From NCBI RefSeq assembly GCF_900115675.1, contig NZ_FOXI01000001.1, positions 1 to 64,000 on the forward strand: DNA of 64,000 nt, in the 5' to 3' direction. The DNA comes from Halolamina pelagica. Its GTDB lineage: Archaea > Halobacteriota > Halobacteria > Halobacteriales > Haloferacaceae. The first letter of the stretch is position 1, and every line of letters starts with the position of its first letter. The notes under the pieces were generated by a model. It was not told where the DNA came from and searched no databases. It saw nothing but the letters and a program-made list of their open reading frames with translations. A program made the translations under genes and the position numbers. Below are positions 10,909 through 16,360 of the stretch, piece after piece.

Positions 10909-11460
10909 TCAGCGTTCCTTCGTGGGGGATGCGGACTCCCCGTCCTGATGTGCTCGGACGAAGGCCCGGCGGAGGACCGTCAAGAGCACGTACGTTTCGT
11001 ATTTTTGGGTCCGACAGTGCTCGCAGGGTTGCATCTCTGTCGTGATCCCGTCGATCACGTCGTCGTACTCGTCGGTCAGCGTGGCGAGTACTCTCTCGAT
11101 CTGTGGCTGGACCGCGTCGATCATCTCCTCGATAGCAGGATCGGCTGATTCTGGCAGCGAGTACGAGAGGACGGTCGTGTTTGCCCCGTAGTATTTCGTT
11201 GTCCCACCCCGCCCCTCCTCGAATCGAACCACATCGACGAGGCCGGCGTCCCGAAGTTCGTTGATGTGGTGGCGCACGGTGTTTTCGGTCCGGTCGATCC
11301 CGCGGTCAGCGAGGCGCTCGTGTACGTCGCTCGCCGTCAGCGCTTCGTCAGCGAGAGCGTCGAGAATCATCGCCCGCATCGGTTCGTCGATGGCGTCAGA
11401 GACCCGCGTATCTCGAACGGCAATGTCCTCAAGGTCGTGACCGACATCGGACTCGCTCAT
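10909..11460 (-). CDS. HTH transcriptional regulator with C-terminal CxxC (metal-sensor-like)
   Basis: A 183-residue ArsR-like winged-helix regulator. The wHTH covers about residues 25-95 (MRAMILDALADEALTASDV, then the recognition helix RTENTVRHHINELRDAG and the wing EEGRGGTTKYY). A helical segment follows and then a CEHC motif (Cys146, Cys149) suited to binding a soft metal. It is divergent from the HMA/P-type ATPase genes and separated from them by an operator-like region, so it most likely represses or activates metal export. The metal cannot be told from the sequence. Confidence 0.83.
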   Translation of the reverse strand: MSESDVGHDLEDIAVRDTRVSDAIDEPMRAMILDALADEALTASDVHERLADRGIDRTENTVRHHINELRDAGLVDVVRFEEGRGGTTKYYGANTTVLSYSLPESADPAIEEMIDAVQPQIERVLATLTDEYDDVIDGITTEMQPCEHCRTQKYETYVLLTVLRRAFVRAHQDGESASPTKER

Positions 11461-11560
11461 ACGTGAACTAACGGCCTGTACACGCTAAGTAATAACGACC
11501 GCCGTTCGAACTTCGCTTGCCGCCCGCTCTCAGGGGACTTCTGAAAGCCCTCGACGGCTC

Positions 11561-11598
11561 GTTTGTCCGTTCAAACAGCTCGTATCTCCGCTCAAACA
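11561..11598. promoter_or_regulatory. Operator-like repeats upstream of the metal-export genes
   Basis: Two 12-base direct repeats of TCCG(T/C)TCAAACA at 11566-11577 and 11587-11598 are spaced 21 bases apart, two helical turns. The first copy also forms an inverted repeat, GTTTG-6-CAAAC (11561-11576). They lie just before an A-rich TATA-like stretch (TAAAAAATACTTAG, about 11606-11619) that would drive the HMA gene. This is a good candidate binding site for the divergent HTH regulator. Confidence 0.55.
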
Positions 11599-11647
11599 TA
11601 TCATCTAAAAAATACTTAGGGGGATCCGGGTGCTACGTTGAACTGCA

Positions 11648-11863
11648 ATGAGCGAAACGACGCAACTCCGCGTGATGGACTTCGACTGTCCGAGCTGTGC
11701 GAGCACCGTCGAACGCGCCCTGTCGAATCAGGAGGGCGTCGAAGACGTCGAGGTACACTACTCGACCGGTCGTGTCGAGATCGACTACGACGACAGCGTC
11801 GCCGACCCCGCCACGTTCGAACGGACCATCGAAAACCAGGGCTACACGCCCCAGCCCGCCTGA
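11648..11863 (+). CDS. Heavy-metal-associated (HMA) domain protein
   Basis: A 71-residue single-domain ferredoxin-fold metal-binding protein. The CxxC metal site is in MDFDCPSCASTVERAL (Cys14, Cys17), and the C-terminal GYTPQPA is typical of HMA domains. The MDCPSC-like form is common in Zn/Cd/Pb-type transport partners, while copper chaperones more often have MTCxxC, so the metal is uncertain. It ends 11 bases before the P-type ATPase, which has no HMA of its own, so this protein probably serves as its detached metal-delivery domain. Confidence 0.88.
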   Translation: MSETTQLRVMDFDCPSCASTVERALSNQEGVEDVEVHYSTGRVEIDYDDSVADPATFERTIENQGYTPQPA

Positions 11864-11874
11864 GGAGAAGAGCC

Positions 11875-13800
11875 ATGGATACCCAATCAGTCAAACGATA
11901 CTATCGCAAACGTCGGAAGGTCATCATCGTCGCGGTGAGCGGCCTGCTGTACGCCGGCGGCTGGACCCTCGGCTACCTCACCGCCCTCGATACCGCGAGT
12001 GCCGCCATACTCGTCCTCGCAGCTATCGTCGGCGGCTACGACATCGCCAAGACCGCCTACCACGAGGTCAAAAGCCGGACGCTCGGCATCAAGACGCTGG
12101 TGACGCTGGCCGCCGTCGGCGCGATCGGTATCGGCTCCTACTGGGAGGCCGCCGCGGTGGTCTTCCTGTTCGCGCTGGGGTCGTACCTCGAGGGGCGGAC
12201 GATGCGCAAGACGCGCAACGCCCTCGAAGAACTGCTGGAGATGACGCCCGACACGGCCACCGTGCGCCGCGGCGGCGAGCAACGGGAGGTGCCTGCCCGC
12301 GAGGTCGAAGCGGGCGAGGTCGTCATCGTCAAACCCGGCGAGAAGATCCCCGTTGACGGCGACGTCGTCGACGGGGAGAGCGCCGTCAACCAGGCCCCGG
12401 TCACCGGCGAGAGCGCGCCCGTCCACAAGGCCGACGGCGACGAAGTGTACGCCGGCACCATCAACCAGGAAGGCTCACTGGAGATCGAGACGACGGGCGC
12501 CGGGTCGGACACGACGCTCCAACGGATCATTCAGCGCGTCGAGGAGGCCCAGGAGGCCCAGTCCCCCACGGAAAGCCTCATCGACCGCTTCGCCAAGTAC
12601 TACACGCCCGGTGTGATCGCACTGTCCATCGGGGCCTACGCAGTCACGCAGAACGCGATCCTGTCGCTGACGCTGCTGGTCATCGGTTGTCCCGGGGCCC
12701 TGGTGATCGGGCCGCCGGTCAGCATCGTCTCCGCGATCGGCAACGCTGCCCGAAGCGGCGTTCTGATGAAGGGCGGCGAGCACCTCGAACGGGCCGGCAA
12801 GATCGACCTCGTCGCCTTCGACAAGACGGGCACGCTCACGAAGGGCGAGACGACCGTCGCCGACGTCGCCGGGTTCGACGCCGAAGTCAGCGAGGTGCTG
12901 GAGCTCGCAGCCGTCGCCGAGAAGAAGAGCGAACACCACCTCGGCGACGCCATCCTCGAGGCGGCACAGACCCGACAGGGCACCGTAACCGATGGCGGGA
13001 CGACGATCTCCCGGCCAGACGACGACTCAGCAACCACGGACGCGCGGTCGCTCCCTGACCCGGAGGATTTCGACGTGGTCGCCGGGAAGGGCGTCGTCGC
13101 TCACCACGACGGCCGCGAGATCGTCGTCGGGAACCGCGCACTCCTCGACGAGCGGGGGATCGAGCTCCCCGACGAGGTCGCGGAGTACGTTCGCAAGCGC
13201 GAGGAGCGCGGCGAAACTGCCGTCCACGTCGTCCGCGACGGCGTGGTCGTCGGTGCGATTGCGCTCCGGGACGAACTGCGCGAGGCCGCGCCCGGCGTCG
13301 CCGCCCAACTGCGAGACGCGGGCATCGAGACGGTGATGCTCACCGGCGACAACGAGCGCACCGCCCGCGCGGTCGCCGGGGAGGTCGGCATCGACGACTA
13401 CCGCGCGGAACTGCTCCCCGAAGACAAACAGGCGGTCATCGAGGAATACCGCGAGGCGGGTCACGTCGTGGCGATGGTCGGCGACGGCATCAACGACGCG
13501 CCGTCGCTGGCGACTGCCGACGTCGGCATCGCCATGGGCGCCGCCGGGACCGACACCGCCATCGAGACGGCGGATATGGCGCTGATGGCGGACGACCTCG
13601 AACGCATTCCCTACGCGGTGACACTCAGCAAGGCCACCAGATGGAACATCTACGAGAACGTCGGCCTCGCGGTGCTGACGGTGACGATCCTGCTGGCAGG
13701 GGTCCTGACGAGCTACGTCACGCTCGCGCTCGGGATGCTCGTCCACGAGGCAAGCGTCCTCGCCGTGATCGGCAACGGGATGCGGCTGCTGCGGTACTGA
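11875..13800 (+). CDS. Heavy-metal translocating P-type ATPase (P1B-like, CPG motif)
   Basis: A 641-residue cation exporter. The P-type signatures are complete: actuator TGE (residues 177-179), phosphorylation site DKTGT with Asp316, an HP dipeptide-like nucleotide-domain motif in KKSEHHLGDA, TGDN, and the hinge GDGIND (536-541). Membrane helices occur near 17-60, 75-115, 240-290 and 585-640. The transmembrane metal motif reads CPG (Cys272-Pro-Gly) where most P1B pumps have CPC, which should alter metal coordination. There is no N-terminal HMA domain. A linker of about 30 residues (around 365-395) is rich in Asp and Thr. The ATG at 11875 follows a purine-rich GAGGAGAAG. Confidence 0.93.
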   Translation: MDTQSVKRYYRKRRKVIIVAVSGLLYAGGWTLGYLTALDTASAAILVLAAIVGGYDIAKTAYHEVKSRTLGIKTLVTLAAVGAIGIGSYWEAAAVVFLFALGSYLEGRTMRKTRNALEELLEMTPDTATVRRGGEQREVPAREVEAGEVVIVKPGEKIPVDGDVVDGESAVNQAPVTGESAPVHKADGDEVYAGTINQEGSLEIETTGAGSDTTLQRIIQRVEEAQEAQSPTESLIDRFAKYYTPGVIALSIGAYAVTQNAILSLTLLVIGCPGALVIGPPVSIVSAIGNAARSGVLMKGGEHLERAGKIDLVAFDKTGTLTKGETTVADVAGFDAEVSEVLELAAVAEKKSEHHLGDAILEAAQTRQGTVTDGGTTISRPDDDSATTDARSLPDPEDFDVVAGKGVVAHHDGREIVVGNRALLDERGIELPDEVAEYVRKREERGETAVHVVRDGVVVGAIALRDELREAAPGVAAQLRDAGIETVMLTGDNERTARAVAGEVGIDDYRAELLPEDKQAVIEEYREAGHVVAMVGDGINDAPSLATADVGIAMGAAGTDTAIETADMALMADDLERIPYAVTLSKATRWNIYENVGLAVLTVTILLAGVLTSYVTLALGMLVHEASVLAVIGNGMRLLRY

Positions 13801-13836
13801 ATCGAATCACAGACCGGCGACTACGACCGACTCACA

Positions 13837-14496
13837 ATGTCAGAGAACACGACTCGGACCGGCACGAACCGTACCGACTCGAACATGGCCGTCGAATACG
13901 ACGTCGAACCGATTCGGATCCGTGACCCCGTCGCGGAAGCGCTCGCCGTCCTCGATCCCGGCGACCCGTTCATCGTCACCTACGAGGACGTGGTGACGGC
14001 GGCGGGCCACTCCTGCCCGACCGCGTCGGGAGCCTATCGCATCGCCCAGATGGGCCTCGACGCGCTGTACCCGGACGATCTCCCGGTCCGAAGCGAGGTC
14101 GAGGTACTCGCTGCGGGACCGCGTGACGACGCCACGTACGGCGTGATGGGACGCCTCATCTCGTACGTGACCGGCGCGGCCCAGGAAGACGGCTTCGGTG
14201 GGCTCGCCGGCGGCTACGGTGATCGCCGGAACATGCTGACGTTCGACGCGTTCGACCCCGATAGTGCTGCCCCGACGTTCCGCTTCCGCCGGACCGACAC
14301 TGACGAAACCGTCGAGGTGACCTACCACGTCGGCGACGTTCCGGATGGCGGGCCAGCACTCGGCAACCTCCAACGGATCATCGAGGGGACGGCGAGCAAC
14401 GAGGACCGCGAGCTGTTCGCCGACGTGTGGCACGGCCGCGTCCGGAGTGTCCTCTCCGACGACTCGCTGTTCACTGTAACGACCATCGAACACTAA
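13837..14496 (+). CDS. FmdE-like protein
   Basis: A 219-residue protein resembling the FmdE family named after formylmethanofuran dehydrogenase operons. The hallmark is AGHSCPTASGAYRI, in which His and Cys are likely metal ligands, followed by LYPDDLPVRSEVEVLAAG and the glycine-rich FGGLAGGYGDRRNML. Haloarchaea do not make methane, so this is a co-opted member of unknown role. It begins 36 bases after the ATPase stop and ends at a terminator-like hairpin, so it is probably the third gene of the metal operon; a metal-handling role is inferred from that. An internal ATG at 13885 is an alternative start. Confidence 0.75.
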   Translation: MSENTTRTGTNRTDSNMAVEYDVEPIRIRDPVAEALAVLDPGDPFIVTYEDVVTAAGHSCPTASGAYRIAQMGLDALYPDDLPVRSEVEVLAAGPRDDATYGVMGRLISYVTGAAQEDGFGGLAGGYGDRRNMLTFDAFDPDSAAPTFRFRRTDTDETVEVTYHVGDVPDGGPALGNLQRIIEGTASNEDRELFADVWHGRVRSVLSDDSLFTVTTIEH

Positions 14497-14645: not shown

Positions 14646-14709
14646 CCGAGTATACGGGTTTTCACGGATACAAGATTTATCAGTGTCGCCGCCCTAGCTA
14701 CGGACAGCG

Positions 14710-15243
14710 ATGAGCACCCAGAAAACCGCCCGCCAGCAGGCCGGTACCGTCGAGGAGAATCCCGTCCGCATCGACGTCGAGAAGGCCGAGCAGATCGTCG
14801 ACGCGCTCAACCGCGACCTGGCGTCGACGTACGTCCTCTACCACCAGGTTCGCAAGCACCACTGGAACGTCGAGGGCGCCGAGTCCGGCGACCTGCACGA
14901 CTTCCTCGACCAGGCTGCGGCGACGCTCGAGGACCACGCGGACGCCATCGCCGAGCGCGCGCAGGCGCTCGGGGGCGTGCCCGTCGCGGGCCCGGCCGCA
15001 CAGGAGGAACACGCCTACGTCGAGTTCGAGGGCGAGGACGTCTACGGCATCCGTGACTCGCTCGAAGCGGACCTCGAGGCCTACGGCGACGTGATCGAGA
15101 ACGTCCGCGAACACGTCGGGCTCGCCACGGACCTCGGTGACTACGCGACCGCCGAACTCCTCCGCGAGGTGCTGGAGGACCTGGAGGACGACGCCCACGA
15201 CATCGACCACTACCTCGAGACCGACACGCTCGTCCAGGGGTAA
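14710..15243 (+). CDS. dpsA: Dps-type ferritin (DpsA)
   Basis: Dodecameric mini-ferritin that oxidises and stores iron and protects DNA from Fenton chemistry. The 177-residue protein keeps all ferroxidase ligands: His51 (KHHWNVEG), His63 and Asp67 (LHDFLD), Asp78 and Glu82 (DAIAERAQALGG). These positions coincide with those of Escherichia coli Dps. A TATA-like element about 30 bases upstream implies a very short leader. It is the first of three overlapping or abutting Dps-family genes, two bases before the GTG of the next. Confidence 0.94.
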   Translation: MSTQKTARQQAGTVEENPVRIDVEKAEQIVDALNRDLASTYVLYHQVRKHHWNVEGAESGDLHDFLDQAAATLEDHADAIAERAQALGGVPVAGPAAQEEHAYVEFEGEDVYGIRDSLEADLEAYGDVIENVREHVGLATDLGDYATAELLREVLEDLEDDAHDIDHYLETDTLVQG

Positions 15244-15245
15244 CC

Positions 15246-15818
15246 GTGTCCGAGCCCAAACGCGGACGGCTCGTCCGCGAGTTAGAGGGCGGGACCGTCC
15301 GACAGGACCGCGGGACGGTGGACGGGAACCCGGTCCGCCTCGACGCCGGGGCGGCCGCCGAGATGGTGGAGGCACTGAACGTCGTCCACGCGGGCACGTT
15401 CAACCTCTTCTATCTCGTCCGGAAACACTACTGGAGCGCCGAGGGCGCGGAGTCCGGAGCCGTCGCCGACTTCCTCGGGGAGGCCTACGGGCGACTCCGC
15501 GGGATCGACGACGCGGTCGCCGATCGAATCACGGCGCTGGGCGGCGTTCCGGTGAGCACGCCGCCGGAGATCCAGGAGTACGCCCCGGTCCACCTCGAGG
15601 CCGAGCACCTCTACGGTCTCCGCGCTTCCCTGGAGGGTGATCTGGCGGCGTACGCGACGCTGGCGGCGAGCATGCGCGACGCCGTCGACGTGGCGGCCGG
15701 GATCGACGACGAGGCCAGCCGCGAACTGCTGGAGGACCGGCTCGAAACCATCGAGGACGACGCCCACACCATCGAGCGCTTCGTCGAGGACGACTCGCTC
15801 GTGGAGGTGGACCGATGA
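15246..15818 (+). CDS. Dps paralogue 2, ferroxidase site degenerate
   Basis: A 190-residue Dps-family protein starting at a GTG two bases after the dpsA stop. The fold signature is clear (VRKHYWSAEGAESG, ITALGGVPV), but by alignment with DpsA the ferroxidase ligands are mostly lost: His51 becomes Tyr62, His63 becomes Ala74, Asp67 becomes Gly78 and Glu82 becomes Asp93; only Asp89 (equivalent to Asp78) remains. It has an N-terminal extension of about 10 residues relative to DpsA. It is unlikely to oxidise iron by the canonical mechanism. It may co-assemble with DpsA or act in DNA binding; both ideas are inferences. Confidence 0.88.
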   Translation: MSEPKRGRLVRELEGGTVRQDRGTVDGNPVRLDAGAAAEMVEALNVVHAGTFNLFYLVRKHYWSAEGAESGAVADFLGEAYGRLRGIDDAVADRITALGGVPVSTPPEIQEYAPVHLEAEHLYGLRASLEGDLAAYATLAASMRDAVDVAAGIDDEASRELLEDRLETIEDDAHTIERFVEDDSLVEVDR

Positions 15819-16360
15819 GCGCGCCACACCTTCGACGCCCGGCCGATTCGGAACTGCGCCGTGAGTGGAGCGAGGTCGGCGAGAACGAACTCCGCCTCGA
15901 CCCGGAGGCCGCCGCGGTGGTGATCGAGGACGTGAACCGGTGTCTCTCGGGGCTGTACATCCTGTTCAACCAGCTCCGAAAGCACTACTGGACCGTCGAG
16001 GGCGCCGAATTCAGGCAGGTCGAGCAGCGACTGCGGGACCGGGCCGACCGGCTCAGCGACCTGACCGACGACCTCGCGATCCGCGTCCACGCGCTGGGTG
16101 GCGTCCCGGTCAACGGCCCGATGGGTATCCGCGAGCACGCGCCGATGCAGATCGAGGCCGGTGACGTCTACGGCGTGCGCGACGCACTCGCGAACGACCT
16201 CGACGGCTACGCGACGCTCGCGGTCGTGTTCCGCGAGGCGATCGAGACCGCGCTCGAAGTCGGCGACGAGCGCACGGTCGAAACGCTGCAGGAAGGGCTA
16301 CTCGCTATCGAACAGGACGCACACGCCGTCGAACGCTACCTCGGGGACGACAGCCTCTAG
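15815..16360 (+). CDS. Dps paralogue 3, ferroxidase site degenerate
   Basis: A 181-residue third Dps-like protein whose ATG overlaps the previous stop by four bases (ATGA), indicating translational coupling. RKHYWTVEGAEF and HALGGVPVNG mark the family. The ferroxidase ligands are lost: His51 becomes Tyr58, His63 becomes Glu70, Asp67 becomes Arg74 and Glu82 becomes Ile89, while Asp85 persists. Sharing the KHYW replacement with paralogue 2 suggests these two diverged after an earlier duplication from the active form. Its stop overlaps the tail of a 50-residue gene on the other strand. Confidence 0.88.
   Translation: MSAPHLRRPADSELRREWSEVGENELRLDPEAAAVVIEDVNRCLSGLYILFNQLRKHYWTVEGAEFRQVEQRLRDRADRLSDLTDDLAIRVHALGGVPVNGPMGIREHAPMQIEAGDVYGVRDALANDLDGYATLAVVFREAIETALEVGDERTVETLQEGLLAIEQDAHAVERYLGDDSL

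Follow-up and report, generated by a model that had tools for sequence, protein, structure and literature searches.

Why should a haloarchaeon carry, next to a Dps gene with an intact ferroxidase site, two further Dps genes in which this site is missing? The question is raised by positions 14710-16360 of the window (the 64,000-nucleotide stretch of Halolamina pelagica DNA analysed here), where three Dps genes, Dps1, Dps2 and Dps3, follow each other on the plus strand (Table 1). Dps cages are regarded as homododecamers, with the ferroxidase site as their core. The initial annotation of the locus had suggested that the co-translation of one active and two inactive subunits leads to a mixed-subunit cage, or to sequestering proteins specialised for DNA or other metals. 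From the comparative data presented below we infer that the matched, ferroxidase-dead Dps pair of haloarchaea points to a mixed-subunit cage, a type which is undescribed for Dps.

The Dps genes of the window

All three gene products match the ferritin-like domain PF00210 (E values of 3e-31, 2e-17 and 1e-16 for Dps1, Dps2 and Dps3, respectively), and the scores of Dps2 (64.1 bits) and Dps3 (61.3 bits) are well above the cut-off of 24.5 bits. The haloarchaeal DpsA equivalog model NF041388 has a curated cut-off of 170 bits; Dps1 scored 276.6 bits against it, and Dps2 (168.5 bits) and Dps3 (166.9 bits) of the window were both slightly below the cut-off. In Halarchaeum, Dps2 (195.5 bits) and Dps3 (191.0 bits) both exceeded it without having a ferroxidase site. 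NF041388 fails to tell the Dps1, Dps2 and Dps3 subfamilies apart. The annotation may miss the distinction as well: in the one annotated record that was checked, the 603 kb plasmid pCBA1220-01 of Halarchaeum sp. CBA1220 (NZ_CP054708.1, trio at L117:3454-5136), all three genes are labelled dpsA.

The stop codon of Dps1 and the GTG start of Dps2 are separated by 2 nt, and the latter gene overlaps with Dps3. The TATA-like element upstream of Dps1 is a possible candidate promoter, from which a single mRNA of dps1, dps2 and dps3 could be transcribed; its placing relative to the Dps1 start agrees with that of a haloarchaeal TATA box.

Table 1. Positions of the Dps genes and of associated elements in the window.
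Feature	Position	Strand	Properties
dps1	14710..15243	+	177 aa, ATG start; ferroxidase ligands intact (H51, H63, D67, D78, E82)
dps2	15246..15818	+	190 aa, GTG start; putative ferroxidase-dead Dps subunit (Y62/A74/G78/D89/D93)
dps3	15815..16360	+	181 aa, ATG start; putative ferroxidase-dead Dps subunit (Y58/E70/R74/D85/I89)
ATGA overlap of the Dps2 stop (TGA) and the Dps3 start	15815..15818	+	4 nt common to both genes
TATA-like ATTTAT	14675..14680	+	about 30 nt 5' of the Dps1 start; spotted by eye

On the 5' side of the Dps genes, the region 10909-14496 contains the minus-strand gene of an HTH_20/ArsR-type regulator. It also codes for a heavy-metal ATPase of the P1B type and for a protein of 219 aa, whose match to FmdE (GHSCPTASG) is weak and below the cut-off. 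It is possibly a metal-stress island, and it is not conserved beside the pair elsewhere. Two more ferritin-like genes, closely related, are present at other contig positions of the same genome (L002:1474-1953, minus strand, and L003:356-832, plus strand); both are above the PF00210 cut-off and are not close to Dps1-3.

The ferroxidase site is kept in Dps1 and lost in Dps2 and Dps3

The ligand positions were read by alignment to E. coli Dps and H. salinarum DpsA. In E. coli Dps the high-affinity site is made up of H51 and H63 of one subunit and E82' of the partner, and the low-affinity site of K48 and D67 with D78' (PMC9140674). The five ligands that the initial annotation had claimed for Dps1 were all found, with numbering identical to that of E. 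coli. The residues given for Dps2 and Dps3 were also all correct; however, the statement that only the D78 equivalent is retained does not hold strictly, since D93 of Dps2 is, in this genome, a conservative E82-to-D change. The replacement of D67, which had been counted as a sign of loss, is not diagnostic in haloarchaea, because H. salinarum DpsA has Gly at this position and the Dps1 proteins are variable there (G/E/D/Q).

The loss of the ligands goes beyond chance, as it is conserved in 38 Dps2 and 38 Dps3 orthologues. The complete set of H51, H63, D78 and E82 was present in none of the 38 Dps2 and in none of the 38 Dps3 proteins. H63 is absent in all 76 sequences, position 51 is Tyr in most of them and position 82 is mostly hydrophobic (V in 13, I in 10 and E in 10 of the 38 Dps2 proteins), and D78 is retained in 75 of the 76. 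Since H63 is part of the high-affinity site in E. coli, its disappearance means that both Dps2 and Dps3 have lost this site. At the sequence level the idea of two inactive subunits is thus well supported over the 38 loci, and Dps2 and Dps3 appear to be Dps proteins by descent which are not Dps-type ferroxidases. A half-site arrangement, in which Dps2 would lend D78 and E82 to a Dps1 site, was discarded as not general, because position 82 is not kept in the Dps2 orthologues.

It could be supposed that iron or another metal is still bound or oxidised in Dps2 and Dps3 at a re-built site consisting of D79, Glu68, Tyr52 and the His164 of a third subunit (H. salinarum numbering). D79 is found in 75 of the 76 sequences, Glu68 in 60-68% and His164 in 76-84%, and in Nostoc Dps4 a third subunit contributes its His164 as a ligand (PMC6675082). 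However, the full set is conserved nowhere (position 68 is occupied by Gly and Arg in the window pair) and both high-affinity His residues are lost, His63 in 76 of 76 sequences. The re-built site was rejected as very improbable, since the alignment columns contain no conserved replacement first shell; the specialisation for other metals, proposed earlier, is likewise not borne out, as these columns offer no conserved replacement ligand set. In the same column table of Dps2 and Dps3, the conserved ExxH of a Bfr-type intrasubunit centre was not found in helices B and D.

Distribution and gene order of the pair

A sample of 392 genomes across the order was searched, together with a 392-genome draw of the phylum. 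In the order sample at least one Dps match was obtained in 365 of the 392 genomes. Clear Dps2 orthologues were detected in 37 genomes, spanning five family codes, and precisely these genomes also had a clear Dps3 orthologue; there was no case of Dps2 without Dps3 or the reverse among the 392 genomes. A lone Dps3-like match in genome G304 turned out to be an ordinary Dps1. In the phylum draw Dps2 was confined to the order.

The 37 genomes and Halolamina rubra (L036), which was obtained from a contig scan with Dps2, provided 38 loci. Dps2 and Dps3 are adjacent and in constant order in all 38, and their junction is between -4 and +2 nt in 36, with a 4-nt overlap in 19 of these. Close or overlapping starts had been taken as a mark of co-translation, and the conservation of tight or overlapping junctions in 36 of the 38 loci is in line with such a coupling. 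Two loci look damaged, where an assembly error is possible: in L072:8540-9208 Dps2 is divided over two frames, and in L066:8779-10669 the gap between Dps2 and Dps3 is about 400 nt and Dps3 has no tail. No conserved neighbours beyond the Dps genes were found around the pair loci; what looked like neighbour clusters consisted of scattered P-type ATPases or of ORFs shadowing the Dps genes.

Dps1 is present in every pair-bearing genome, which says little, since most haloarchaea have Dps1 anyway. It is directly upstream of the pair in 25 of the 38 loci, with a gap of 0-13 nt in most of them, and elsewhere in the genome for the other 13; the linkage of catalytic and non-catalytic paralogues therefore involves the pair in all loci and an upstream Dps1 in these 25. 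The co-translation of one active and two inactive subunits is thus supported as far as Dps2 and Dps3 are concerned, which form an invariant unit, but it cannot be extended as a rule to Dps1, which is located elsewhere in 13 of the 38 loci and is phylogenetically interchangeable. The obligate unit is Dps2 plus Dps3, not the trio.

This distribution bears on the possibility that Dps2 and Dps3 form separate homododecamers with distinct functions, their adjacency being due to tandem duplication and shared regulation. Known Dps proteins are homododecamers, Dps proteins that lack ferroxidase activity have been mentioned (PMC3613396), and each of the two subfamilies has invariant residues of its own. 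The co-occurrence in 37 of 37 genomes with zero single-gene losses and the conserved tight junctions are, however, hard to explain without a joint function, and the Dps2 homodimer would be like-charged in 25 of the 38 loci, a weak argument in the same direction. Separate homododecamers are considered unlikely.

Phylogeny, co-variation and selection

Dps2 and Dps3 each form a single clade and the two clades are sisters of each other (SH-aLRT 99, 98 and 100); in a second tree the bootstrap/aLRT values of the Dps2 and Dps3 clades were 100/99 and 98/96. A single clade of the pair-adjacent Dps1 proteins was rejected (AU p=0.0002, for a group defined after the first tree had been seen), and in family f7 the pair-adjacent Dps1 groups with the local solo Dps1 lineage. 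The distance matrices of Dps2 and Dps3 from 23 trios correlated with r=0.96, and with 0.93 when Dps1 was controlled, values to which shared inheritance contributes. In the same 23 trios the Dps1-Dps2 and Dps1-Dps3 correlations, with the third protein controlled, were 0.20 and 0.08.

Both Dps2 and Dps3 are under purifying selection, the dN/dS values being 0.16-0.33 for Dps2/Dps3 versus 0.05-0.16 for Dps1. Their evolutionary rate is about twice that of Dps1, which, together with the two damaged-looking loci, could be read as the decay of functionless duplicates. However, the pair is intact in 36 of the 38 loci over five families and has subfamily-invariant residues; this conservation and the dN/dS values contradict a pseudogene interpretation, which is hardly credible.

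The invariant residues differ between the subfamilies (Dps2 has Arg75, for example, and Dps3 has Asp72), as does the signature of a loop, which is TPPxxQ in Dps2 and GPMGIR in Dps3. A tail motif, RQEW[G/D]T, is common to Dps2 and Dps3 and absent from Dps1; the copies in the window have diverged. In about two thirds of the Dps3 proteins the B-C loop (CGPMGIR) contains a lone conserved Cys at position 94 of the H. salinarum numbering, which is Asn in the window, and the pair-adjacent Dps1 proteins have no Cys at all. Outside the Dps2 and Dps3 clades, a solo Dps1-type gene of genome G130 (family f17, genus g37; L081:4466-5035, minus strand) has Y/D/G/D/R at positions 51/63/67/78/82, an independent loss of the ligands.

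Predicted fold, interface and tails

AlphaFold models of Dps2 and Dps3 were made from six-sequence alignments, since the contig scan with Dps2 gave one locus only; the mean pLDDT was 76, and the tails and part of the B-C loop were poor. Both models are four-helix bundles, which superposed on H. salinarum DpsA (1MOJ) with Z scores of 20.3 (Dps2) and 21.5 (Dps3) over 153 residues; because bacterioferritins score nearly as high, these values support the fold only. Structure prediction of the subunits had been proposed as a check in the initial annotation, and it assigns a Dps-type four-helix fold to Dps2 and Dps3.

When the ferroxidase partners of helix B are numbered as in E. coli, the two positions of each pair add up to 145 (63+82', 67+78'). 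This suggests an antiparallel register of helix B, where 71 lies opposite 74' (corresponding to 72 and 75' of H. salinarum). The invariant Arg75 of Dps2 would then face Asp72 of Dps3 across the two-fold axis in 36 of the 38 loci, and in a Dps2:Dps2 homodimer like charges would meet at the same facing position in 25 of the 38. This pairing is taken as a hint only, since the residues were picked after inspection and real Dps1 homodimers also score repulsive.

The tails of Dps2 and Dps3 contain about 4-5 K/R in 30 residues, with a net charge of about -0.4 to -1. They are not basic; the suggested specialisation for DNA is therefore not supported, and DNA binding through a basic tail was rejected.

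A proposed mixed Dps cage

In the explanation which we tentatively prefer, the coupled Dps2/Dps3 pair and Dps1 would build a mixed 12-subunit cage, in which Dps1 oxidises and the pair is non-catalytic. As the junctions imply, translational coupling would probably keep the synthesis of Dps2 and Dps3 balanced; the two would then act as an obligate heteromeric pair, as their obligate pairing in the genomes suggests. Dps1, whether encoded in their operon or at another locus, would join them, and the oxidation of Fe(II) would take place at the two-fold interfaces between Dps1 subunits. By analogy with ferritin L chains and the ferroxidase-poor subunit of hetero-bacterioferritins, Dps2 and Dps3 may serve as non-catalytic wall and storage subunits. 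The proposal is built on the ligand loss, the fixed pairing, the tight junctions, the one clade for each protein, the purifying selection and the predicted four-helix fold; against it, the fixed gene order can be explained by co-inheritance alone.

The steps of this explanation differ in strength. Dps2 and Dps3 probably do co-assemble physically, judging from their genes. The inclusion of Dps1 in the same cage is the weaker step, plausible but held with some reserve: it is strengthened by the arrival of Dps1 at the upstream position in more than one lineage, and weakened by the 13 loci without an adjacent Dps1 and by the interchangeability of the Dps1 proteins.

The latter two points would favour a heteromer of Dps2 and Dps3 alone, with heterodimers formed over the former ferroxidase interface, unmixed with Dps1, which would merely be co-regulated when adjacent. 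The task of such a heteromer would be other than ferroxidation, e.g. DNA or ligand binding or keeping iron that was oxidised elsewhere. The invariance of the pair, the small residual correlations of Dps1 with Dps2 and Dps3 and the facing Arg75 and Asp72 are in accordance with this alternative. However, it does not account for the repeated placing of Dps1 directly upstream, a DNA role is at odds with the tails, and two subunit types at 6:6 have no equivalent arrangement in 23 symmetry, as the group A4 lacks a subgroup of order 6. We regard a cage of Dps2 and Dps3 only as rather unlikely.

An exact fit to 23 symmetry is obtained when three subunit types are present at 4:4:4, with all copies of one type in equivalent positions. 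In such a mixed cage (D2 layout) the two-fold dimers would be homotypic, the four Dps1 ferroxidase sites would remain intact and each three-fold would join Dps1, Dps2 and Dps3. This 4:4:4 cage, or one in which some of the catalytic dimers give way to obligate Dps2:Dps3 heterodimers, is a doubtful though conceivable form of the preferred mixed assembly. To our knowledge, a hetero-oligomeric cage of either form, if real, would be without precedent in Dps; a search of the openly accessible literature for haloarchaeal Dps paralogues or Dps hetero-oligomers gave no description of a mixed cage.

Comparison with known systems

H. salinarum DpsA (PDB 1MOJ/1TJO; NF041388), a known active cage, belongs to the same family and has the same fold, and Dps1 is its orthologue-like member. 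DpsA keeps H52/H64/D79/E83, whereas Dps2 and Dps3 are without the ligand set and are obligately paired. Lactococcus lactis DpsA and DpsB are examples of Dps proteins without ferroxidase activity. Such proteins share with Dps2 and Dps3 the Dps fold without a working centre, but they are treated as homododecamers and not as a coupled pair beside an active paralogue.

The closest parallels come from other cages, and these precedents favour a hetero-cage. In the hetero-bacterioferritins Bfr1/Bfr2 of Magnetospirillum and SoBfr12 of Shewanella, the genes are adjacent, one subunit is without a ferroxidase centre and the subunits co-assemble in one cage (PMC6529640, PMC12120770). The likeness lies in the linked paralogues and in the centre missing from some subunits; however, those are haem-containing 24-mers of the Bfr subfamily and not Dps 12-mer-type subunits, and in haloarchaea both members of the pair appear dead, the active protein is a third paralogue and co-assembly is deduced from the genes. 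In H/L ferritins isostructural catalytic and non-catalytic chains are combined in mixed cages (PMC7762939); the animal proteins differ in being 24-mers with an intrasubunit centre, two chains instead of three and unlinked evolution. The conserved, obligate pair of ferroxidase-dead Dps subunits suggests that hetero-assembly has evolved in mini-ferritins too, as in ferritin and bacterioferritin, and it provides a compact gene set for asking why cages need non-catalytic walls.
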